From positions 1 to 43,925 of the forward strand of contig JACFNV010000010.1 in NCBI GenBank assembly GCA_019454675.1: a stretch of 43,925 nt of DNA, in the 5' to 3' direction. The notes below the pieces were generated by a model. That model made no database searches and had not been told where the DNA came from. It was given only the letters and a program-made list of their open reading frames with translations. Below are positions 1 through 9,028 of the stretch, one piece after another. The DNA is from Gammaproteobacteria bacterium. GTDB taxonomy: Bacteria > Pseudomonadota > Gammaproteobacteria > Steroidobacterales > GCA-2729495. The position numbers and the translations under genes were made by a program. Position 1 is the first letter of the stretch. Every line of letters begins with the position of its first letter.

Positions 1-26
1 AAGAAAAACTGAATACTGTCCGCAAC

Positions 27-275
27 TTATGTCAAAACACTCATCTCGATGAACTCGATTGATTCCAGATGCACAGGAAGAAACCCGCCGGCGACCCAGG
101 CCGCCTCAGCGACGCGAGCACCCACGACACCGACAAAACTCGTGTTGTCTTCCGGGCCCAAAAGACAGGTGTCTGAAGCCAAGGTGATATCGCAACCAGG
201 GAGGGCTTCATGAACTTGTCCCCGGCGCTGAAACCAGAGTGGGTCAGGGCGACTCGACCGATATTGACGGCTGTT
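27..275 (-). pseudogene. Remnant of an unidentified coding sequence (3' part only)
   Basis: On the minus strand an 83-codon open frame ends in TAA at 27-29. It has no ATG or GTG at a plausible N-terminal position and is closed upstream by a stop at 276-278. The C-terminal part reads like real protein: segments such as FVGVVGARVAEAAWVAGG and ESIEFIEMSVLT have balanced composition and good codon usage. The overlapping ORF in another frame (41-325) has a low-complexity, Ser/Arg/Trp-rich translation and looks like its shadow. I do not recognise the family. The missing start suggests a decayed 3' fragment, in keeping with the broken genes that follow. It could be chance open frame. Confidence 0.3.
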
Positions 276-348
276 TTACCACTGGCCTGCCGGGACGGGC
301 GCATATCGCAGAACGGCAGCCACAACCCGCATCAGCCCCACCCTCGGC

Positions 349-354
349 TATAAT
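349..354 (+). promoter_or_regulatory. Consensus -10 element (TATAAT), possibly for a leaderless mRNA
   Basis: A perfect TATAAT lies 7 bases before the ATG at 362, so transcription from it would start at or next to the start codon and give a leaderless message. No convincing -35 hexamer is visible at the usual spacing. Confidence 0.35.
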
Positions 355-361
355 TTGCCGC

Positions 362-550
362 ATGCAAAAGAAGTCCCTGGCGAGCAGCAACCGGCACTTG
401 AGCAGCGTGGCTGCCTACCGCAGTGCCCTGCTGGCGAACGTTGCCAGTTCGACCGCCATCGAAACCGGGCAACGCATCGAAGATATTGCCCGGTCTCTTG
501 CCAGCGACCTGGCGCACGGCACCCTCAAGCCGGCTGCGCCGCAGAAATAA
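362..550 (+). CDS. Small protein, candidate Fic inhibitor (antitoxin)
   Basis: The 62-codon ORF has normal codon use for this genome. The ATG at 362 is preferred over the upstream in-frame start at 239 because the extra N-terminus is low in protein character and the TATAAT sits at 349-354. The middle reads YRSALLANVASSTAIETG and then a basic/hydrophobic helix ending in LAHGTLKP. The stretch S-T-A-I-E-T-G resembles the inhibitory helix of Fic antitoxins such as VbhA ([S/T]xxxE[G/N]), although T occupies the G/N position. The gene converges on the fic gene and overlaps its 3' end by 26 bases, whereas known Fic antitoxin genes usually lie upstream on the same strand. The function is inferred; only the ORF and the motif resemblance are seen. 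Confidence 0.5.
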   Translation: MQKKSLASSNRHLSSVAAYRSALLANVASSTAIETGQRIEDIARSLASDLAHGTLKPAAPQK

Positions 551-1163
551 CCTCGGTGAACAGGGCCGTCATCGGCCGGTAATTGCGATCCAGCCCGGCC
601 TGTACCGCCGCAAGGTACCCATCCCGTGCTGGCCCGGTGAGCCGGCTGAATTCCAGCAGTGGCAATCCCGCCTGCAATGCCATCAGCGTTGCGAGGAGAC
701 GGGAAATCCGGCCATTGCCTTCACGGAACGGATGGGCAAGTATCAGTTCGTCATGTACCTCCGCCAGCGCCGCCGCCACCGCTTCCGTGCCGCCCGGCCT
801 GCAAGGGGTGCATCGCGCCAGAACCCGGGTCTCCAGATCGGCCATCAACCCTTCGATCCGGTACGCCGCCGCGAATGGAAAACCATCCTTTCCCACGTTG
901 ACGCTGCGATACCGCCCTGCCCAGGCATAGACGCCACCGAGCCATCGCGCGTGCATCGCGCGGATATCCGCGGCCGTGAATCGATGGTCCGAGCCTATCT
1001 CGTGGATGAGTTCATCCAGCACCCTCGCCAGTTCCGCGGCTTCGAGGCGCTCCATTTCCACCGGATCAACAATGCCCCGCAGATTGCACAGGACCCGATC
1101 ACCCGAGCCGGGCTCGAAGCGCCCCTCTGCGGCATCAGATGCATCGTATCGATCGCTTATCAT
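525..1163 (-). CDS. fic: Fic/DOC family protein (probable AMP-transferase toxin)
   Basis: The 212-aa protein carries the Fic motif HPFREGNGR at residues 144-152, with the catalytic His first and the Glu-Gly-Asn-Gly-Arg anion-binding loop intact. The upstream Fic-core segment AWAGRYRSVNVGKDGFPFA lies at about 81-99 and forms the target-docking flap in this family. Fic enzymes usually transfer AMP from ATP to a hydroxyl side chain of a target protein. No [S/T]xxxE[G/N] helix is evident inside the protein, so an inhibitor in trans is expected. The ATG overlaps the stop of a short upstream frame (ATGA). The gene lies among toxin-antitoxin modules. Confidence 0.88.
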   Translation of the reverse strand: MISDRYDASDAAEGRFEPGSGDRVLCNLRGIVDPVEMERLEAAELARVLDELIHEIGSDHRFTAADIRAMHARWLGGVYAWAGRYRSVNVGKDGFPFAAAYRIEGLMADLETRVLARCTPCRPGGTEAVAAALAEVHDELILAHPFREGNGRISRLLATLMALQAGLPLLEFSRLTGPARDGYLAAVQAGLDRNYRPMTALFTEVISAAQPA

Positions 1164-1309
1164 CGGGCAACTGCGTCCAGCCGACTCGCCTGCCTATCCA
1201 GATAGTCAACGAATATCCGGATCACAAAGCCCACGTCCACGGTGATCATGGCTTTGGATTTGCCGGGGAACGGAGCACCAACTTTGCCACGGACCTGCCC
1301 GCCCGTCAC
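1160..1309 (-). other. Possible short ORF translationally coupled to fic
   Basis: A GTG-initiated frame of 49 codons (inner ATG at 1222) ends in TGA overlapping the fic ATG as ATGA. Its C-terminal half, beginning MITVDVGFVIRIFVDYL, is amphipathic and plausible as protein. No strong ribosome binding site is seen and I recognise no family. It could be a leader peptide, a same-strand fic partner, or chance open frame. Confidence 0.25.
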
Positions 1310-1348
1310 AGGTCGAAACCACGGACTATCACTGGAAAGATGCAACTC

Positions 1349-1606
1349 ATGGCCCGCCCACCCACCCATCCCGGCGAGATCCTTGCCGACGAACTGCAGG
1401 AGATCGGTGTCACGCCCACCGAACTCGCCCGCCAGATCGAGGTACCGGCCAACCGGGTGACGCAGATCATCCATGGCCGGCGCGGCATCACCGGCGACAC
1501 CGCCCTGCGCCTCGGCCACTGGTTCAACAACACCGTGCGGAGACCTACGGCTCAACGTCACCGAAATAGGCCGGTGTATCCATCTGCTTGTGCGGCACAC
1601 CGATGA
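1349..1606 (+). pseudogene. higA: Truncated HigA-type antitoxin (HTH XRE), frame disrupted
   Basis: The frame begins MARPPTHPGEILADELQEIG and continues through PANRVTQIIHGRRGITGDTA and LRLGHWFNN, the conserved N-terminal two thirds of the HigA/VapI antidote family. After about residue 62 the expected EFWLNLQ-type segment is missing. A different frame at 1542-1565 reads DLRLNVTE, like the end of that segment, so a small internal deletion with frameshift is likely. The C-terminus is out-of-frame sequence that runs into the 3' end of parE. No higB toxin gene is seen upstream. GGAAAG at 1334-1339 supports the ATG at 1349 over 1340. Confidence 0.7.
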
Positions 1607-1853
1607 TGTCGATAACGCCGGTGCCGATGAGATAGAAGATCACGTGCGACCCTTCCGGAAAACTGTAATAGCCCTCGGCAATGTCGGGCCGATGTCTACC
1701 GGAATGCGGATGTTCGGTGAGCCAGTGGAATCGGGCATCGAGCGCACGCATGTATGTTTCGCGCTGCGCCTCGCCCCACCGCTGGCGCGTGTACCGCGCA
1801 ATGTTCTTGAGGTCGGCAGAAGCCCGTGGCGTGAGCCGAAACGCCGGCTTCAC
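1545..1853 (-). CDS. parE: ParE/RelE-family toxin
   Basis: The 102-aa protein has the ParE fold signature: an N-terminal RLTPRASADLKNIARYT helix, the RWGEAQRETYMRAL helix, and the strand pattern SFPEGSHVIFYLI followed by DIIGVPH. ParE toxins generally poison DNA gyrase, while RelE relatives cut ribosome-bound mRNA; which activity applies cannot be read here. The GTG start overlaps the parD stop as GTGA, so the two are translated together. The 3' end overlaps the broken higA on the other strand. Confidence 0.88.
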   Translation of the reverse strand: MKPAFRLTPRASADLKNIARYTRQRWGEAQRETYMRALDARFHWLTEHPHSGRHRPDIAEGYYSFPEGSHVIFYLIGTGVIDIIGVPHKQMDTPAYFGDVEP

Positions 1854-2098
1854 TCGTCCGCGTCCGCTTCGGCAATCAGCTTGTCGATGGAATAGTCCTG
1901 CACGAACTCGCCGCGCGCGGCCTGTGCTGCGCCCTCGGCCAGATGCGCCCGCAGTGCCTCCAGCTTCGTCTTGCGCTCCTCCAGGATACGCAGTGCGGAA
2001 CGAACCACTTCACTGGCCGAACCGTAACGCCCGCTGGCGACCTCGTTGCGAATAAAGACTTCCCAGTGCTCACCCAGGCTCAGGCTGGTCGTGGCCAT
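1850..2098 (-). CDS. parD: ParD-family ribbon-helix-helix antitoxin
   Basis: The 82-aa protein starts at MATTSLSLGEHWEVFIRNEV and contains the RHH core with SGRYGSASEVVRSALRILEER, typical of ParD antitoxins (CC2985/CopG-like) that neutralise ParE and repress their own operon. The start at 2098 is supported by a G-rich SD-like stretch just upstream and by the promoter at 2130-2158, which lies inside the longer alternative ORF and excludes it. The C-terminus, which binds the toxin, is acidic (EADADE). Confidence 0.9.
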   Translation of the reverse strand: MATTSLSLGEHWEVFIRNEVASGRYGSASEVVRSALRILEERKTKLEALRAHLAEGAAQAARGEFVQDYSIDKLIAEADADE

Positions 2099-2129
2099 GC
2101 GACATCCCCCGAAGTACTCACATTTATTA

Positions 2130-2158
2130 TTTATGAATATTTCGATAAAAGCTGTCAA
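2130..2158 (-). promoter_or_regulatory. parDE promoter
   Basis: On the minus strand a perfect TTGACA (2158-2153) is followed after 17 bases by CATAAA (2135-2130, 4 of 6 matches). The parD ATG lies 32 bases further on. The surrounding AT-rich stretch (2110-2150) stands out from the GC-rich flanks and is a likely ParD operator. Confidence 0.55.
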
Positions 2159-2275
2159 GGATTGATGGGTGCCGGTGCGTATGGATGCCGTGGGTTGAGT
2201 CCATCAACCGAATCGATCGTTTTTAGAGCCGAAAGCGAGCTCGAAAACGGTACTGCATAATGGTACTAACATTTT

Positions 2276-2530
2276 GTGAAAAGACGGCACAGAGCCACGC
2301 TGGAATTGATCTTCGCCCGCCCGGTCAAGGGATCGATCCGCTGGGCCGACATCGAGGCACTCTTTGCAGCCCTCGGGGCGGAGATCAGCGAACGGGAAGG
2401 CTCGCGAATCGGCGTGTTCCTGTTCGGCGAGGTGCGCGTCTTCCACCGCCCGCATCCTTCACCGGATACGGACAAAGCCGCGGTTGCCAGCATCCGCAAA
2501 TGGCTGGAAGAACATGGAGTAAGACCATGA
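2276..2530 (+). CDS. hicA: HicA-family toxin (mRNA interferase-like)
   Basis: The 84-aa protein starts at GTG and has the HicA double-stranded-RNA-binding-like fold pattern: KRRHRATLELIF, SIRWADIEALFAALGAEI, and FHRPHPSPDTDKAAVASIRKWLEE. In classical HicA the catalytic His follows a Gly-Ser pair; here the corresponding text is EGSRIGVFL, so Arg occupies that place, as in a common HicA subgroup. Possible catalytic His residues remain in FHRPHP. The stop overlaps the hicB ATG as ATGA. A CATAAT (2256-2261) upstream may be the -10. Confidence 0.85.
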   Translation: MKRRHRATLELIFARPVKGSIRWADIEALFAALGAEISEREGSRIGVFLFGEVRVFHRPHPSPDTDKAAVASIRKWLEEHGVRP

Positions 2531-2859
2531 ACAATGTCGTTGAAGTCGATGGCGAGAAAGCGGTTGTCGCCTTTGATCCCGAGATCCGGATGCTGCGCGG
2601 CGAGTTTGTCGGCCTGAACGGCGGGGCCGACTTCTATGCCGAAAGCGTCCACGAACTGGTCGAGGAAGGACGCAAGTCGCTGGCCGTCTATCTGGAAATG
2701 TGCCGGGAAAAGGGTATCGAGCCGCGCCGGAAGTTCTCCGGCAAATTCAATGTTCGCCTCACTCCCGATGACCACGCCGCAGCGGTCATTGCTGCCGCAG
2801 CAGCAGGCAAGAGCCTCAACGAATGGATCGTCGGCACGATCCGGGAGGCTGTCGAATAG
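2527..2859 (+). CDS. hicB: HicB-family antitoxin
   Basis: The 110-aa protein has an N-terminal HicB fold (KAVVAFDPEIRMLRGEFVGL, then the SVHELVEEGRKSLAVYLEMC helix) and a C-terminal DNA-binding region with KFNVRLTPDDHAAAVIAAAA and SLNEWIVGTIREAV, which reads like a ribbon-helix-helix domain. Such proteins bind and silence HicA and repress the operon. It is the last gene before the tRNA-Ser repeats, 37 bases away. Confidence 0.88.
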   Translation: MNNVVEVDGEKAVVAFDPEIRMLRGEFVGLNGGADFYAESVHELVEEGRKSLAVYLEMCREKGIEPRRKFSGKFNVRLTPDDHAAAVIAAAAAGKSLNEWIVGTIREAVE

Positions 2860-3021
2860 CGGCGGTGCTGCGGGGCGGCCGTGCCAGGAGCGGAACGTGG
2901 GATTGACTCGCCCACAGGTACATGGGCTCGCCCCTGCGGGGCGCCGTCGCTTTGCTCCGGCGTCCCGGCCTGCCCTGCAGGCCGGTCGAACCAGTGGGTT
3001 CGTCCACGCACCCCCTTCCGG

Positions 3022-3060
3022 TGAATGAAAAAGGCCCCGCGAAGGGGCCTTTTTCATTCA
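3022..3060 (-). terminator. Intrinsic terminator, distal repeat unit
   Basis: A perfect 17-bp inverted repeat (3022-3038 with 3044-3060) with a 5-base loop has a GGGGCC core flanked by A5 and T5, so it can terminate in both directions. On the minus strand it begins one base after the CCA of the tRNA-tail copy. It is identical to the hairpin at 3198-3236. Confidence 0.85.
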
Positions 3061-3080
3061 CTGGCGGAGAGGGTGGGATT

Positions 3081-3237
3081 GACTCGCCCGCGGGTACGCG
3101 GGCTCGCCCCTGCGGGGCGCCGTCGCTTTGCTCCGGCGTCCCGGCCTGCCCTGCAGGCCGGTCGAACCAGTGGGTTCGTCCACGCACCCCCTTCCGGTGA
3201 ATGAAAAAGGCCCCGCGAAGGGGCCTTTTTCATTCAC
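3081..3237 (-). ncRNA. Candidate rtT-like RNA trailing tRNA-Ser
   Basis: If transcription from tRNA-Ser reads past the first hairpin, tRNA-type 3' processing at the CCA copies would release an RNA of about one repeat unit, as for rtT RNA of the E. coli tyrT operon. The unit contains the terminator hairpin, a GC-rich hairpin at 3143-3163 (CCGGCCTG with CAGGCCGG), and the variable hairpin at 3086-3103. Expression is unproven. Confidence 0.35.
3198..3236 (-). terminator. Intrinsic terminator directly after tRNA-Ser
   Basis: The hairpin is the same perfect 17-bp stem as at 3022-3060, with a GGGGCC core and T5 tail, and begins one base after the tRNA CCA end. It should end most tRNA-Ser transcripts. 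Confidence 0.9.
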
Positions 3238-3328
3238 TGGCGGAGAGGGTGGGATTCGAACCCACGTTACGGGGTTACCGTAAACACGCTTTCCAAGCGT
3301 GCGCCTTCAGCCACTCGGCCACCTCTCC
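3238..3328 (-). tRNA. tRNA-Ser(GGA)
   Basis: The sequence folds as a class II tRNA of 91 bases including an encoded CCA (3238-3240 on the plus strand as TGG). The acceptor stem GGAGAGG pairs with CCTCTCC, the discriminator is G, the T-arm contains GGTTCGAATCC, and a long variable arm follows the anticodon stem. The anticodon GGA is at 3292-3294 and reads UCC and UCU serine codons. Its 3' 19 bases are duplicated downstream in tandem repeats. Confidence 0.97.
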
Positions 3329-3400
3329 TGATTGTGCGTGGGCCGCCGCGGCGCGCAGGTTAACCGAGCGGCGCGGCGAGGGCAAATATTCTGTTTCCCT

Positions 3401-3700
3401 TTATTTATCGGTCTCTTGCAGAGGCTTGTCGAAGTACGGTGGAGGTTGCTGCAGGCAGCCGGCAACCCCGGCGAGGGGTTCCGCGGGCACCGGGCCGGCG
3501 GGGACGTAAAGCCGGGTGGTGGAGTCGAGCGCATCCATGCCCGCCGGGACGCTGACCTCGGGTGCCTCGCGGGCCTGCTGGTATTCGCTGGCCAGGGCGC
3601 AAGGGTCGCTGCCGCTGCGCCAGAGTGAGCAGCCGGATGCCAGCAGCACGGTGGCGGCAAGCGGCAGCATGCGGATGACCAGGTGCTTGCCCGGCTTCAT
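3401..3700 (-). CDS. Small lipoprotein, likely BamC reduced to its N-terminal segment
   Basis: The 99-aa protein has a signal peptide with lipobox LLASGC (Cys24), so it should be an acylated lipoprotein. The rest is proline-rich and without predicted globular structure: EYQQAREAPEVSVPAGMD, then STTRLYVPAGPVP. This resembles the unstructured N-terminal part of BamC (tyrosine-alanine, then L-x-x-P-A-G-M, then Y-x-I/V-P), the part that binds BamD in E. coli. The gene directly follows dapA with an ATGA overlap, the same place as bamC (nlpB/dapX) in E. coli, where BamC is about 344 aa with two helix-grip domains. Both domains are absent; tRNA-Ser follows 72 bases later. Confidence 0.6.
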   Translation of the reverse strand: MKPGKHLVIRMLPLAATVLLASGCSLWRSGSDPCALASEYQQAREAPEVSVPAGMDALDSTTRLYVPAGPVPAEPLAGVAGCLQQPPPYFDKPLQETDK

Positions 3701-4572
3701 GCGATGCCTGCCTGGCGCAGCGCGGCCTCGACCTGTGGTCGGGCTGCTTCCGAGAGCGGGGTGAGCGGCAGGCGGATGCCGGCAGGGATGCGGCCCATGC
3801 GCTGCAGCGCCCACTTCACCGGGATGGGGTTGGATTCCGCGAACAGCTCGTGGTGCAGGGTGGTGAGCGGCTCGTCGAGCGCGGCGGCCTCGGCGGCGCG
3901 GCCGGCCAGCGCCACCTCGCACATGCGCGCCATGGCGGCGGGTGCCACGTTGGCGGTCACCGAGACCACGCCCTGCCCGCCCAGCAGCAGGAAGCCGCGC
4001 GCGGTGGCGTCGTCGCCGCTGTACAGGGCGAAGCCCTCCCCCACCAGCCCGCGCAGCTGCGCGACGCGGCCAAGGTCGCCGGTGGCATCCTTGATGCCCA
4101 TGATCCGCGGGTGCGCGGCCAGCCGCGCCACCGTGGCCGGCTTGAGGTCCGCCGCGGTACGGCCGGGCACGTTGTAGAGCATGAGCGGGTGCTCCACGGC
4201 ATCGGCCACGGCGCAGAAATGCTGGTACATGCCCTCCTGGGTGGGCTTGTTGTAGTAGGGCACCACCACCAGGTAGGCGGCGATCGGCAGCTTGCCGACG
4301 GCGCAGGAGAGGTCGATGGTCTGCGCGGTGGAGTTGGAGCCGGTGCCGGCGATGACCGGGATCCGGCCCGCGGCACGGGCGGCGGCCACGCGGATCACCT
4401 CGATGTGCTCGTCCCTGGAAAGCGTGGCCGACTCGCCGGTGGTGCCGGCGATGACCAGCGCCCCGGTGCCTTCGGCGACGTGCCAGTCGACCAGGCGCTC
4501 GAGGCAGCCGAAATCGACCGCCCCGTCCGGGCCCATGGGCGTGACCAGCGCGACAAGGCTGCCTTTGAACAT
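3697..4572 (-). CDS. dapA: 4-hydroxy-tetrahydrodipicolinate synthase
   Basis: DapA condenses pyruvate with aspartate semialdehyde in the first committed step of lysine and diaminopimelate synthesis. The 291-aa protein shows the Schiff-base lysine in GIKDATG at K161, the proton-relay tyrosine in MLYNVPGR at Y133, and TTGES at 44-48, at the same numbering as the E. coli enzyme. The ATG at 4572 is chosen because homology begins MFKGSLVALVTP; the longer open frame upstream covers gcvR on the other strand and is spurious. It is translationally coupled to the lipoprotein gene downstream. Confidence 0.97.
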   Translation of the reverse strand: MFKGSLVALVTPMGPDGAVDFGCLERLVDWHVAEGTGALVIAGTTGESATLSRDEHIEVIRVAAARAAGRIPVIAGTGSNSTAQTIDLSCAVGKLPIAAYLVVVPYYNKPTQEGMYQHFCAVADAVEHPLMLYNVPGRTAADLKPATVARLAAHPRIMGIKDATGDLGRVAQLRGLVGEGFALYSGDDATARGFLLLGGQGVVSVTANVAPAAMARMCEVALAGRAAEAAALDEPLTTLHHELFAESNPIPVKWALQRMGRIPAGIRLPLTPLSEAARPQVEAALRQAGIA

Positions 4573-4606
4573 CGGGAATCGACCGGGGGAAGCGTGCGGG
4601 CCTGTG

Positions 4607-4635
4607 ATGGTACTTTCGCCCCAGCACCCCCGCAA
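4607..4635 (-). promoter_or_regulatory. Possible dapA promoter
   Basis: On the minus strand TTGCGG (4635-4630) and TACCAT (4612-4607) are separated by 17 bases, 35 bases before the dapA ATG. The matches to consensus are moderate (3 of 6 and 4 of 6). Confidence 0.3.
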
Positions 4636-4642
4636 GGCCGGC

Positions 4643-4670
4643 TTGATGGCCCGGGCTTTCCCGGTACACT
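4643..4670 (+). promoter_or_regulatory. Possible gcvR-bcp promoter
   Basis: TTGATG (4643-4648) and TACACT (4665-4670) are separated by 16 bases, 34 bases before the gcvR ATG. The -35 partly overlaps the region of the divergent dapA promoter. Confidence 0.4.
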
Positions 4671-4704
4671 GCCGAGCTTTCCGGGCATCGCACAGAACAA
4701 CTGC

Positions 4705-5232
4705 ATGGACAAGCTGCTGGCCATTACGGCAATCGGTCGTGACCGTACCGGCCTGATCCGCGACCTCAGCCAGGCGATATCCGGCTCCGGGGGCAGCATC
4801 CGCGAAAGCCGCATGATGGCGCTCGGCTCGGAATTCGCCATCCTCATGCTGATCGCGGGCAACTGGCACTCGGTCAACAAGGTCCGCGGCCGGCTGGCCC
4901 AGCTCGAGCGCGGCGGCGAGCTTGCCATCATCGTGCGCGATGCCGAGGAGCCGGCCGCCGAGGCCTCGGCCCCCTACCACATCGACGTGGTGGCCATCGA
5001 CCAGGAGGGCATCGTGCTGCGGCTGGCCAGCTTCTTCGCCAACCGCGAGCTGGAGATCGCCGAGCTCGGCACGCGCCGATACAATGCACCATACACCGGT
5101 GCCGCCATGTTTTCGGTGCAGATGACGGTCAGCCTCCCGGCCAGCACCCACATCGCCACGCTGCGCGAGGACTTCCTCGACTTCTGCGACGAACACAACC
5201 TCGACGCCATCATGGAACCGGCGCAACGCTGA
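4705..5232 (+). CDS. gcvR: GcvR-like tandem ACT-domain protein
   Basis: The 175-aa protein consists of two ACT domains: the first begins LLAITAIGRDRTGLIRDLSQAI (about 4-80), and the second begins YHIDVVAIDQEGIVLRLASFF (about 97-172). In E. coli GcvR binds glycine and antagonises GcvA at the gcvTHP promoter. The position between dapA and bcp is the usual one for this family in gammaproteobacteria. No gcv genes are in the window, so the regulatory target is assumed from the family. Confidence 0.85.
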   Translation: MDKLLAITAIGRDRTGLIRDLSQAISGSGGSIRESRMMALGSEFAILMLIAGNWHSVNKVRGRLAQLERGGELAIIVRDAEEPAAEASAPYHIDVVAIDQEGIVLRLASFFANRELEIAELGTRRYNAPYTGAAMFSVQMTVSLPASTHIATLREDFLDFCDEHNLDAIMEPAQR

Positions 5233-5288
5233 GCCGTCGAAGCCGTACCGGCCCGGGCACGGGCAGGCAGACACAAAGGTCCGCGAAC

Positions 5289-5756
5289 ATGAGCACCATC
5301 GCCACAGGCAGGAAGGTCCCCGACTTCACCCTCGGTGCAACCGGCGGCAAGGAAATCAGCCTGGCCGGGCTGCGCGGGCACCCGGTGGTGCTCTACTTCT
5401 ACCCGCGCGACAACACGCCGGGCTGCACCACCGAGGGCTGCGACTTCCGCGACCACCATGCCGCCTTCAGGAAGCTCGGCGCGGTGGTGCTTGGCGTCTC
5501 GCGCGACTCGCTGGCCTCGCACGAGAAGTTCAAGGCGCAGCACGAGTTTCCCTTCGACCTGCTGGCCGACGGCGACGAGGATCTCTGCCGCCTGTTCGAC
5601 GTCATCCGCGAAAAGAACATGTACGGCAAGAAGGTGATGGGCGTCGAGCGCAGCACCTTCCTCATCGATGCCGATGGCGTGCTGCGCAAGGAGTGGCGCA
5701 AGGTCAAGGTGGGGGGTCACGTGGAGGCCGTGCTGGCGGCGCTCAAGGCCCTCTAG
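5289..5756 (+). CDS. bcp: Thioredoxin-dependent peroxiredoxin Bcp (PrxQ)
   Basis: Bcp reduces hydrogen peroxide and organic hydroperoxides in the cytoplasm using thioredoxin. The 155-aa protein has the PrxQ motif with peroxidatic Cys46 and resolving Cys51 in DNTPGCTTEGCDF, which marks the atypical two-cysteine type. The length matches the family. It follows gcvR by 56 bases and an AAAGGT ribosome binding site precedes the ATG. Confidence 0.95.
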   Translation: MSTIATGRKVPDFTLGATGGKEISLAGLRGHPVVLYFYPRDNTPGCTTEGCDFRDHHAAFRKLGAVVLGVSRDSLASHEKFKAQHEFPFDLLADGDEDLCRLFDVIREKNMYGKKVMGVERSTFLIDADGVLRKEWRKVKVGGHVEAVLAALKAL

Positions 5757-5774
5757 GCCACGGAGAAACAGCCC

Positions 5775-7265
5775 TTGTTCCGCCGCCTGGTCGTCCTCGC
5801 CTGCAGCCTTGCCCTCGGCCTGGCGCCGCTGCTGGTGGCGGGCAACGACCTGCCCGACATCGGCAACCCCTCCGACACGGTGCTGTCGCGCGACATGGAG
5901 CAGCAGATCGGGCGCTCCATCTACAAAAGCCTGCGCGACACCGGCAAGGTGGTCACCGACCCTGAGCTGCAGGAATACATCCAGGACATCGGGCAGAAGA
6001 TCGCCGCCAACGCCACCGACAACGGCCAGCGCTTCCGCTTCTTCATCGTCGATGACGCGGCGATCAACGCCTTCGCCCTGCCCGGCGGCTACGTCGGCGT
6101 GCACTCGGGGCTGCTGCTGGCCACCGCCAACGAAAGCGAGCTAGCCGGCGTGCTGGCGCACGAGATATCGCACGTCACCCAGCGCCACATCTCGCGCGCC
6201 ATCCACGCCAACTCCCGCGCCAGCATCCTCACCATGGCGGCGCTGCTGGGCGCGATCCTGCTGGGTGCGGCAACCGGCTCGGGCGATGCCATCCAGGGCG
6301 CGCTGGCGGCGGCCCAGGGCGCGGCCGCCCAGCAGCAGATCAACTTCACGCGCAGCAACGAATACGAGGCGGACCGGGTGGGCATCGGCCTGATGGCAAG
6401 CGCCGGCTTCGACCCCGATGCCATGGCCAGCTTCTTCAACACCCTGGCCCGGCAAAGCGGCCCGCTGGCGAGCGCCGCGCCCGAGTTCCTGCGCACCCAC
6501 CCGGTGACCGTCAATCGCGTCGCCGAGGCACGCGAGCGCGCCGCGCAGTTCCCGCGCACGGGGGAAGAGGCCCGCAGCACCACCGGCTACGGGCTGGCGC
6601 GCGCCAGGCTCCGCCTGCTGGCAAGCCCCACCCCGGAGTCGGCCCTGGCCTACTTCACCAGCCAGCAGAAGGACCCGGCGCATGCCGGCACGCTCGGCAC
6701 CGAATACGGCCTGGCGCTGGCGGAGCTGCGCGCCGGCCAGGCAAAACAGGCGGCGGAAGCCTTCGCCGGCCTCGTCGCCGGCAATCCCGGCGTGATCCCC
6801 TTCCACAGCGGGCTGGCCGCGGCGCAGATGGCCAGCGGCGACGAGCAGGCTGCCTTTGCCAGCTACGAGCATGCAGTGAGCCTGTTCCCGCGCAACGTGC
6901 CGCTGACCATCCACTACGCGGAAGCGCTCATGCAGCGCGGGCGCGCCAAGGAAGCCCACAAGATCCTGCTCGACCTGCTGAACATCGTGCCGCCCACCCC
7001 GGAACAGGTGCGGCTGATCGCCCTTGCGGCAAGTGCGGCTGGCGATACGGCGGACGCCCATTACTATATGGCCGAATACCACCTGATGGCAGGCGACCTG
7101 GGTCTGGCTGCCGACGAGCTGCGCATCGCGCTCGGCATGCCCGGGCTGGACTCGGTGCAGAAGGCACGCTTCGGCTCGCGGCTGTCCGAAATCCAGGAGG
7201 TCCTGACGCGACTGCAAGCGGAGAAACGCATGTCACAACCCCGCAATCCGGAATCCGGTTCATGA
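5775..7265 (+). CDS. bepA: BepA-like M48 periplasmic metalloprotease with TPR domain
   Basis: BepA acts in the periplasm as protease and chaperone for outer-membrane proteins, notably LptD. The 496-aa protein has an N-terminal signal peptide (about 1-23), zinc motif HEISH at 129-133, the third-ligand segment NEYEADR at 195-201, and a C-terminal half of helical TPR-type repeats (about 280-480). The start is TTG with GGAG nine bases upstream; no better start precedes it. The stop overlaps the mlaA ATG as ATGA, tying two outer-membrane homeostasis genes together. Confidence 0.93.
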   Translation: MFRRLVVLACSLALGLAPLLVAGNDLPDIGNPSDTVLSRDMEQQIGRSIYKSLRDTGKVVTDPELQEYIQDIGQKIAANATDNGQRFRFFIVDDAAINAFALPGGYVGVHSGLLLATANESELAGVLAHEISHVTQRHISRAIHANSRASILTMAALLGAILLGAATGSGDAIQGALAAAQGAAAQQQINFTRSNEYEADRVGIGLMASAGFDPDAMASFFNTLARQSGPLASAAPEFLRTHPVTVNRVAEARERAAQFPRTGEEARSTTGYGLARARLRLLASPTPESALAYFTSQQKDPAHAGTLGTEYGLALAELRAGQAKQAAEAFAGLVAGNPGVIPFHSGLAAAQMASGDEQAAFASYEHAVSLFPRNVPLTIHYAEALMQRGRAKEAHKILLDLLNIVPPTPEQVRLIALAASAAGDTADAHYYMAEYHLMAGDLGLAADELRIALGMPGLDSVQKARFGSRLSEIQEVLTRLQAEKRMSQPRNPESGS

Positions 7266-8011
7266 GCAGCAGATTTCCCGGGCTGTTGCTGGCCCTGTTC
7301 ATTGCCCTTGGCGCAGCGGGCTGCGCCAGCCAGGCGGCCACCGCCAAGGCACCGCCCGACCCCGACCCGCTCGAACCGGTCAACCGGGCCATCTACTCCG
7401 CCAACGAGGTGCTCGACTACTTCGTCGCCAGACCGGTGGCACGCGGCTACGAGAAGCTGACCCCGCAGTTCTTTCGCACCGGCGCCGGCAACTTCTTCAG
7501 GAACCTGGGTTATCCGGTCACCATCCTCAACGACTTCCTGCAGGGCAAGTTCCGCCAGGGCGGCGCGGACACGCTGCGTTTCGCAATGAACACCACGGTG
7601 GGGCTGGCCGGCCTCCTCGACCCCGCCACCGAGATGGGGCTCGAAGTCCACGACGAGGACTTCGGCCAGACGCTGGCGGTCTGGGGCCTGCCCGAGGGAC
7701 CCTACCTGGTGATGCCGGTGTTCGGCCCCACCACGCTGCTGGCCGGGGCGGGCGACCTCGCCGACACCCAGGCCTCGCTGCTCTACCAGTGGCCGGGCAG
7801 CAATGGCTCGCGCAACGCGCTGGTGGCCTGGGAGCTCACCCACCGGCGCTACACCCTGCTGCCCTATGATGAACAGGTGGAGCAGGCATTCGACCGCTAC
7901 GCCTTCGTGCGTGATGCCTACCTGCAGAACAGGCGCTACAAGATCCACGACGGTCAGCTGCCCGTCGACGACCTCTTCCCCGACGATTTCGAGGATGACT
8001 ACGAGGACTGA
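7262..8011 (+). CDS. mlaA: MlaA outer-membrane lipoprotein
   Basis: MlaA removes mislocalised phospholipids from the outer leaflet of the outer membrane and hands them to MlaC. The 249-aa protein has a signal peptide with lipobox GAAGC (Cys21), followed by the VacJ-family signature DPLEPVNRAIYSANEVLDYF and later RFAMNTTVGLAGLLDPATE and VWGLPEGPYLVMPVFGP. The C-terminal tail is acidic. The gene is separate from and convergent to mlaFEDCB and is coupled to bepA. Confidence 0.96.
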   Translation: MSSRFPGLLLALFIALGAAGCASQAATAKAPPDPDPLEPVNRAIYSANEVLDYFVARPVARGYEKLTPQFFRTGAGNFFRNLGYPVTILNDFLQGKFRQGGADTLRFAMNTTVGLAGLLDPATEMGLEVHDEDFGQTLAVWGLPEGPYLVMPVFGPTTLLAGAGDLADTQASLLYQWPGSNGSRNALVAWELTHRRYTLLPYDEQVEQAFDRYAFVRDAYLQNRRYKIHDGQLPVDDLFPDDFEDDYED

Positions 8012-8078
8012 GCGGCCAGGGCGGAACGCCACCGGCACGCGCCACGGCGGCCGCCAGCAGGCCGGGTGGGTCGGCTGA

Positions 8079-8381
8079 TCAGGCCTGCTGCAGCAGGCCC
8101 TCGGTCTCGCTGATCCGCGCCAGCGCCAGCAGCTTGTCGGGCATGCACTCGATGCGCAGCGCACGCCCGGCCAGGCTCGCCTGCCCCACCCACTCCAGCA
8201 CCAGCGCCAGTCCGGCGCTGTCCACCTGGCTGACCCCGGCAAGGTCGATGCAGGTACCGGCGGGCGCCTCGCGCAGCAGCGGCAGGCTTGCCTCCCACAC
8301 GCCGGGGACGCTGTTGAAGTCGAGCGGTCCGCTGACGCGGAACAGCCCCTCACCCGCCACCTCGAAGCGCGCCGCGGCCAT
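8079..8381 (-). CDS. mlaB: MlaB STAS-domain protein
   Basis: MlaB is the small cytoplasmic STAS subunit that stabilises and stimulates the MlaF ATPase. The 100-aa protein is a single STAS domain: FRVSGPLDFNSVPGVWE, then CIDLAGVSQVDSAGLALVLEW with the conserved DSAG at the helix start. The ATG overlaps the mlaC stop by one base (TGATG). It is the last gene of the operon. Confidence 0.92.
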   Translation of the reverse strand: MAAARFEVAGEGLFRVSGPLDFNSVPGVWEASLPLLREAPAGTCIDLAGVSQVDSAGLALVLEWVGQASLAGRALRIECMPDKLLALARISETEGLLQQA

Positions 8382-9028
8382 CAGCCGCCGGCCTTCGGGG
8401 CGTCGGCCTCGCGCTTGCCGGCATCGATGTCGGCGGTCTCGCGCTCGAGCCGGTCGATCAGCGCATCCAGCCCCCTGGCCGAGACCTCGGCATTGAACTG
8501 GTTGCGGTAGTTCTGCACGTAGGAGATGCCCTCGATGCGCACGTCGTAGACCTTCCAGCCGGCAGGGGTCTCGCGCATGATGTAGCTCACCGGCACCGTG
8601 CTGCCCTCGGGCAGGCGCATCTGCGTATCGATCACCGTGCGGCCATCCGTGGGCGGGCTGCGCTGGGGCAGGATGCGGAAGTCCTTCTGGTCGAACTTGA
8701 GCACCGCGGTGGCATAGCTGCGCAGCAGGAAGTTGTAGAACACGTCCACGAAGCGCTTGCGCTGCTCGGCGCTGGCGCTGCGCCAGGCCTTGCCCAGCAC
8801 CAGCCGGCCGGCGTAGTCGCTGTCGAAGTCGGGCAGCAGCTCGCGATCGATCATCGCATAGAGCGCCTTGCGGTCGGCAGCCAGATCCGCGCCATGCTCC
8901 TCGAGCTGCTGGCTGATGCGCGTCACCGCGGACTCGATCACCTGCTGCGGTGCCGGTGATGGCTCCGCCATCGCGGGGGCAGCAGCCAGCAGCAGGACCG
9001 CTGCGAGGCTAGTCAGCATGCTGCGCAT
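8381..9028 (-). CDS. mlaC: MlaC periplasmic phospholipid carrier
   Basis: MlaC shuttles phospholipid between MlaA and the inner-membrane complex. The 215-aa protein has a signal peptide MRSMLTSLAAVLLLAAAPAMA and the Tol-Tol/Ttg2 family body, including FVDVFYNFLLRSYATAVL and DTQMRLPEGSTVPVSYIMR. The ATG at 9028 is preferred because GGGGATGG stands 7-14 bases upstream; 9019 is an alternative. The gene overlaps the mlaD 3' end by 20 bases. Confidence 0.93.
   Translation of the reverse strand: MRSMLTSLAAVLLLAAAPAMAEPSPAPQQVIESAVTRISQQLEEHGADLAADRKALYAMIDRELLPDFDSDYAGRLVLGKAWRSASAEQRKRFVDVFYNFLLRSYATAVLKFDQKDFRILPQRSPPTDGRTVIDTQMRLPEGSTVPVSYIMRETPAGWKVYDVRIEGISYVQNYRNQFNAEVSARGLDALIDRLERETADIDAGKREADAPKAGG

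Follow-up and report, generated by a model that had tools for sequence, protein, structure and literature searches.

Since 1991 the rtT RNA has stood as an oddity of the Escherichia coli tyrT operon, and the Rfam model covers just a narrow part of it. In E. coli K-12 the tyrT locus holds three units of 178 nt; they terminate in AATCCTTCCCCCACCACCA and have left flank GGGGAAGGATGAGAAG, GGTTCGAC and GAGTAATCC, and the rttR annotation (1287066–1287236) ends at the CCA of its unit. PMC4986893 and PMC2965389 credit the RtT RNA of tyrT to Bosl and Kersten (1991), and PMC4986893 refers to that 1991 work for a role in amino acid limitation. Two RtT homologues of Actinobacillus pleuropneumoniae, Arrc20 and Arrc21, reported upstream of tRNA-Asn and tRNA-Lys, were detected by northern blot as stable transcripts (PMC4986893), and rtT-similar enterobacterial repeats have been assigned to BIMEs (PMC2965389). 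A literature search for a prior description of a wide family yielded nothing beyond RtT from E. coli and Pasteurellaceae, relatives that resemble BIMEs, and the use of RtT to illustrate covariation (PMC8250186, PMC7657543). Here we analyse an array of this type in the window, that is, the whole 43,925-nt stretch of DNA studied (contig JACFNV010000010.1 of the gammaproteobacterial assembly GCA_019454675.1).

A tyrT/rtT-type array behind tRNA-Ser(GGA)

The array lies on the 3' side of a tRNA-Ser(GGA) gene located by ARAGORN on the minus strand (Table 1). Read in direct register, it consists, as a preliminary description of the locus had stated, of two 176-nt repeats (2897–3072 and 3073–3248), which are 98% identical; read as functional units on the minus strand, it comprises unit 1 (3237–3062, 176 nt) and unit 2 (3061–2897, 165 nt), which differ at four positions, all within the fourth hairpin (H4) and with pairing kept at each. 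The same description had both units repeat the last 19 bp of the tRNA, which is true for unit 1 only, since unit 2 ends in an 8-nt remnant; the tail AATCCCACCCTCTCCGCCA has two complete occurrences in the window, the tRNA itself and the end of unit 1 (19/19). The remnant, AATCCCAC at 2904–2897, does close the array as had been noted, and the likeness drawn to tyrT, where 178-nt units carry the last 19 nt of tRNA-Tyr, stands.

Each unit runs from a terminator-like hairpin through a left flank and GGTTCGA to a core of four hairpins, GAGTC and the tail. When unit 1 is folded, the left flank pairs with the tail (P1), with a z-score of −9.5 against shuffles; as unit 2 lacks most of the tail, a full P1 helix is impossible there. 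In a covariance search of the whole genome the two window units were the sole sites at E ≤ 0.01 (E-values in Table 1). This result, together with the 176-nt repeat itself, excludes a chance origin of the array.

Judged from its sequence, the hairpin directly after the tRNA is a putative terminator, and a promoter and terminator consensus scan reported nothing, this hairpin included. As each core is separated from the tRNA by a strong hairpin of this kind, read-through may be low. A cluster of genes of toxin-antitoxin type, identified with Pfam, reaches up to the array, namely Fic/DOC (525–1163, minus strand), ParE/ParD (1545–2158, minus strand) and HicA/HicB (2276–2859, plus strand).

Table 1. 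Parts of the tRNA-Ser(GGA) array, in window positions
Feature	Position	Strand	Basis
tRNA-Ser(GGA) gene, CCA encoded	3238–3328	minus	ARAGORN; Rfam tRNA 61.4 bits
Last 19 nt of the tRNA (AATCCCACCCTCTCCGCCA), T-loop to CCA	3238–3256	minus	sequence
Unit 1, long terminator-like hairpin GGCCCC TTCGC GGGGCC TTTTT, directly after tRNA	3197–3237	minus	inverted repeat 3194–3214/3220–3240, fold
Unit 1, left flank: degenerate inverted copy of T-arm and acceptor 3' strand, predicted P1 with tail, GGTTCGA at end	3162–3196	minus	fold
Unit 1, core C[H1]GGAC[H2][H3]CGA[H4]GAGTC	3081–3161	minus	R1 match 3076–3167, 68.1 bits, E 9.5e-16
Unit 1, complete 19-nt copy of tRNA tail	3062–3080	minus	sequence
Unit 2, terminator-like hairpin, identical to that of unit 1	3021–3061	minus	repeat/sequence comparison
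Unit 2, left flank	2986–3020	minus	sequence comparison
Unit 2, four-hairpin core	2905–2985	minus	R1 match 2900–2991, 74.2 bits, E 1.8e-17
Unit 2, shortened 8-nt tail (AATCCCAC)	2897–2904	minus	sequence

A covarying four-hairpin core homologous to E. coli rtT

The conserved core of each unit reads GTTCGA-C[H1]GGAC[H2][H3]CGA[H4]GAGTC-AATC. Inspection of pattern matches gave the plan C[H1]G-GA-C[H2]G-CCC[H3]GGG-CGA-[H4]-GAGTC, with stem sequences that differ. The four hairpins covary very strongly: among 41 cores, 96.4% of cells are paired, changes on both sides occur at 18 of the 21 pairs, double-change cells number 170 vs. 45.5 ± 4.9 in shuffles, and the signal is lost when the pairing partners are slid. 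A further 54 sequences, in an alignment fitted to the model (A3), show double changes at 20/20 pairs.

From the 41 cores, which include one window unit as a seed and no E. coli sequence, we built a covariance model, R1. Applied to 2.5 kb of the E. coli tyrT locus, R1 recovered all three rtT units, with scores of 32.0, 30.9 and 27.8 bits, as well as a further site in the tyrT-tyrV spacer at 20.1 bits, the next best score being 7.0. The four sites are precisely those that Rfam RtT marks. In another genome (G803), a Val-Val-Val-Lys tRNA operon is followed by two units that score well with both models, at 62–65 bits with Rfam RtT, which passes its threshold, and at 63–65 bits with R1. The comparison with the RtT family proposed in the preliminary description has a split outcome: R1 matches the E. 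coli rtT units, and the Rfam model (RF00391, gathering threshold 45 bits) finds no match in the window even at E ≤ 10, so that we file the array as a remote relative of RF00391 and not as a member of that family as curated. Window-type cores and rtT have the motifs GTTCGAC, CCCGNAGGGCGA and GAGT(C)AATC in common, and the window also displays the same-strand position 3' of a tRNA, the shared core and the pairing of left flank with tail; a unit end formed by the last 19 nt of the tRNA including CCA is found in unit 1 (19/19), with 8 nt in unit 2. On these sequence comparisons, the window array is a distant relative of the E. coli rtT repeat RNA and shares its covarying core. As a separate observation, the fourth RtT unit in the E. 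coli K-12 spacer (L295:1864–1995), which scores 132.9 bits with Rfam RtT, is absent from the feature table of the record.

Several asymmetries bear on whether selection acts on RNA or on DNA. The H4 differences between the window units comprise one compensatory change from G-C to A-U and two G-U pairs on the tRNA-sense strand. G-U outnumbers A-C in the hairpins by 11 vs. 3 (p = 0.06) and 19 vs. 5 (p = 0.007), and in the P1 helix by 26 vs. 8 (p = 0.003), keeping in mind that these counts are not fully independent of one another. Together with the preference of left flanks for their own tail described below, this points to an RNA on the tRNA-sense strand. G-U makes up only about 2% of stem pairs, which is low for a fast-evolving RNA helix and would also be compatible with selection acting on palindromic DNA.

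Recurrence behind many tRNAs with the local tail

Copy numbers at tRNA-Ser(GGA) in relatives, a comparison that the preliminary description had called for, revealed comparable units in three genomes of the window's genus: two in G024, two in G019, the second of which runs off the contig, and one in G020. Five others (G021, G022, G023, G025 and G027) carry other sequence and no comparable units after this tRNA. Since several draft contigs end inside arrays, copy numbers are lower bounds. In G025 an apparent P4-type integrase gene, judged by eye, follows tRNA-Ser(GGA) directly (L012), which makes this tRNA a possible integration site, too, in a congener.

The pattern GTTCGAC N(45–75) GAGTCAATC occurred in 44 of 296 genomes of the order vs. 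3 with a reversed control pattern, and in 27 of 369 genomes of the class vs. 7 with the control. R1 detected the core in 24 of the 40 genomes of the window's family and, at E ≤ 1e-6, in 65 of 397 genomes of the phylum, some of them outside the window's class. The usual arrangement puts the core about 70 nt 3' of a Ser, Arg, Gln or Glu tRNA, whose own tail it carries. Among 73 sampled R1 matches, 47 follow a same-strand tRNA at a distance of no more than 300 nt on its 3' side, mostly at a spacing of 66–92 nt; these tRNAs are led by Ser (27) and Arg (10), followed by Gln, Glu, Lys, Pro, Gly, Asp and Trp. The core stands away from tRNAs in 24 of the 73, in some other genomes, so the tRNA tail is not essential everywhere.

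Matches of the core pattern in viral contigs were mostly due to chance, and real cores were seen only in L222 and L272. Both of these contigs, classed as viral, have cores with a tail of tRNA-Ser type, AATCCCCCTCTCACCGCCA, in L272 as two copies 175 bp apart, and may represent host sequence from the border of a prophage. Nearly identical tRNA-Ser(TGA) units with their flanks were found in two different families (L083/L085 in G017:C6 and L115 in G150:C64), which reflects either recent transfer or a misbinned contig.

The tail follows the local tRNA. In 26 units the 19-nt tail agrees fully (19/19) with the tRNA just upstream, whether this is a Ser, an Arg or a Gln tRNA, and left flanks pair better in P1 with their own tail than with the tails of other isotypes in 32/39 units (p = 2.5e-6). 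For a window unit (L001) the values are −18.3 kcal/mol with its own tail vs. a mean of −14.4 kcal/mol with those of other isotypes, none of the 12 being better. A tree of 60 cores required 11 changes of family vs. 24.4 in shuffles, and at least 17 changes of isotype vs. 24.9. Within the limits of a tree built from about 75 columns, the core thus tracks lineage closely and the identity of the tRNA only in part, and it has often switched between tRNAs. The notion that isotype has no effect, taken from mean identities alone, was rejected because the tree shows some isotype effect.

In relatives, though not in the window, cores also interrupt tRNA loops with precise junctions. At eight loci (L007, L064, L082, L109, L145, L159, L165 and L168) the core breaks the T-loop of a tRNA without a 3' end, and an intact copy of the interrupted tRNA lies 27–101 nt further on. 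At L378:600–755 a tRNA-Ser fragment has the core in its D-arm (GGCAGA-core-ATGGTTGAATGC), and an intact tRNA-Ser follows shortly downstream. The tRNA-Arg(CCG) locus reads tRNA-GGTTCGA-core-AATC..CCA in G020 and G019 and is an empty site in G024, and its junction has CAGGTTCG in the T-arm and again after CCA. Outside the window's class, G667 (L354–L363) contains near-identical cores of the same plan in dispersed repeats away from tRNAs, with repeat ends that resemble inverted TATAGTCGC. Cumulatively, the loop interruptions, the filled and empty tRNA-Arg(CCG) sites and the G667 repeats suggest that the core moves between tRNA loci. The idea that copies away from tRNAs always lie within a palindrome was abandoned because the results for it were mixed. 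In L394 (G020, tRNA-Arg CCG) and L396 (G026) only the 5' part of a tRNA, cut in the D-loop, precedes an intact tRNA-Arg; this 5' stretch mirrors the 3' arrays, with hairpins of different sequence, and in G020 it is part of a repeat.

Interpretation and comparison with known systems

We interpret the array, with a probability of about 60%, as a remote rtT-family element present in two tandem copies, a structured RNA of the sense strand that would bear a tRNA-like CCA end if transcribed and that spreads among tRNA loci. The core sits at the T-loop-equivalent point of a tRNA 3' end, between TTCGA and AATC; on its 3' side stands a copy of the last 19 nt of the local tRNA, and its 5' side is able to pair with that copy. 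With this layout the RNA would fold into a helix resembling the acceptor and T stems of a tRNA, ending in CCA and enclosing the four hairpins. The units would be transcribed when polymerase starting at the tRNA promoter reads through the hairpin behind the tRNA, tail and left flank of the precursor would pair as a tRNA-like acceptor/T helix, and the RNA would be excised and its CCA end trimmed by tRNA-processing enzymes, as annotated for E. coli rttR; in the window, the hairpin between tRNA and core would limit expression. Release by tRNA-type processing is plausible by analogy, since the E. coli rttR annotation ends at CCA and the Actinobacillus RtT homologues are seen on northern blots (PMC4986893). 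The product would probably act as a tRNA-mimic by-product modulating tRNA processing or starvation responses. For its spread, the core may enter a tRNA loop, after which recombination with an intact copy would leave tRNA, core and tail, a route suggested by the tRNA-Arg(CCG) junction.

A bolder extension, which we put forward as tentative and short of an even chance, is that rtT is the E. coli relic of a family of tiny, mobile, noncoding elements found throughout the phylum, which insert into the T-loops and D-arms of tRNAs and, through recombination with an intact copy, leave tRNA, core and local tail, their product being a tRNA-mimic RNA with an acceptor/T helix and CCA. If true, this would be a bacterial, tRNA-riding counterpart of SINEs. 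Through the covarying core, rtT is connected with elements that follow Ser, Arg, Gln, Glu, Lys, Pro and Trp tRNAs in many families, some of them beyond the window's class. This core tracks bacterial lineage more than tRNA, while the tail copies the local tRNA. The function of rtT, the reason for a tail identical to the tRNA, and the spread of noncoding DNA among tRNA genes without destroying them thereby become testable.

The most serious rival, which deserves weight although we consider it unlikely, holds that the core is a non-autonomous mobile DNA element, a REP- or MITE-like palindrome cluster that targets tRNA loops, its hairpins recognised as single-strand or cruciform DNA by a putative transposase or recombinase and its RNA a by-product. 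Cores within T-loops and a D-arm of tRNA fragments fit this view, as do the patchy occurrence among congeners with an empty tRNA-Arg(CCG) site in G024, the near-identical cores in G667 dispersed repeats with ends like inverted TATAGTCGC, and hairpins that are near-perfect Watson-Crick palindromes. DNA palindromes, however, would not favour G-U over A-C on the tRNA-sense strand, nor does the view sit easily with 3' tails that stay identical to the tRNA, with the tight spacing from the tRNA end or with RtT-family RNAs that occur as stable transcripts (PMC4986893), and its mobilising enzyme is only putative.

Far less probable is that the tail repeats are attL/attR scars left by integrative elements using the 3' end of tRNA-Ser. 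Integrases classically target the segment from T-loop to CCA, toxin-antitoxin genes are present beyond the array, and the apparent P4-type integrase gene follows the same tRNA in G025; but the stretch of 157 nt that separates the tails is a conserved noncoding element with four covarying hairpins, found behind many different tRNAs, the unit holds no gene, and no integrase was noticed among the ORFs of window positions 1–9000. Slightly less credible still is the reading of the preliminary description, in which rtT-like layouts with unrelated unit sequence arise repeatedly. The absence of an Rfam RtT match in the window agrees with such convergence, but R1, built without E. coli, detects all three rtT units at 28–32 bits, some units elsewhere exceed the Rfam RtT threshold and are also recognised by R1, and motifs are held in common, so that common descent is better supported. 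As for a chance 176-bp tandem duplication without wider meaning, the one-off event that the same description had also considered, two copies that are 98% identical with nothing similar elsewhere in the window's genome might suggest it, but it has practically nothing left in its favour given comparable units behind tRNA-Ser and other tRNAs in relatives and an element present in 24/40 family genomes and 65/397 genomes of the phylum sample.

Returning to the reading of the array as remote rtT-family copies, the described systems resemble it to different degrees. REP/BIME and palindrome-associated mobile elements are likewise small, noncoding, hairpin-rich and multi-copy, but the window type differs in its fixed four-hairpin unit, its local tRNA tails and its location mostly 66–92 nt behind tRNAs. 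The sX4 model (RF02223) consists of tRNA-Ser and a 3' flank with GGGGGGUGAGA, which resembles the left flank of the units, and unlike them ends before the four-hairpin core; it scores 29.9 bits against window 3182–3340, a weak match far below its gathering threshold of 70, and 77.4 bits, above that threshold, against L333:1599–1753. It appears to represent tRNA-Ser with the left flank of a window-type element, and may be a partial annotation of such a locus. Arrc20 and Arrc21 are, like the array, RtT-family RNAs at tRNA loci, likened here by description, and differ in being reported upstream of their tRNAs (Asn and Lys). The closest system is E. coli RtT/rttR (RF00391), with which the window array shares the position 3' of a tRNA gene, a unit of about 176–178 nt, the 19-nt CCA tail, tandem copies, a left flank that pairs with the tail and a hairpin core ending in GAGT(C)AATC. 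It departs from E. coli rtT in standing behind tRNA-Ser(GGA) instead of tRNA-Tyr, in the shortened tail of its second unit, in the terminator-like hairpin between tRNA and core, in an H1 that is a perfect 9-bp stem where that of E. coli has tandem G.A mismatches, and in having GAGTCAATC where E. coli rtT has GAGTAATC.
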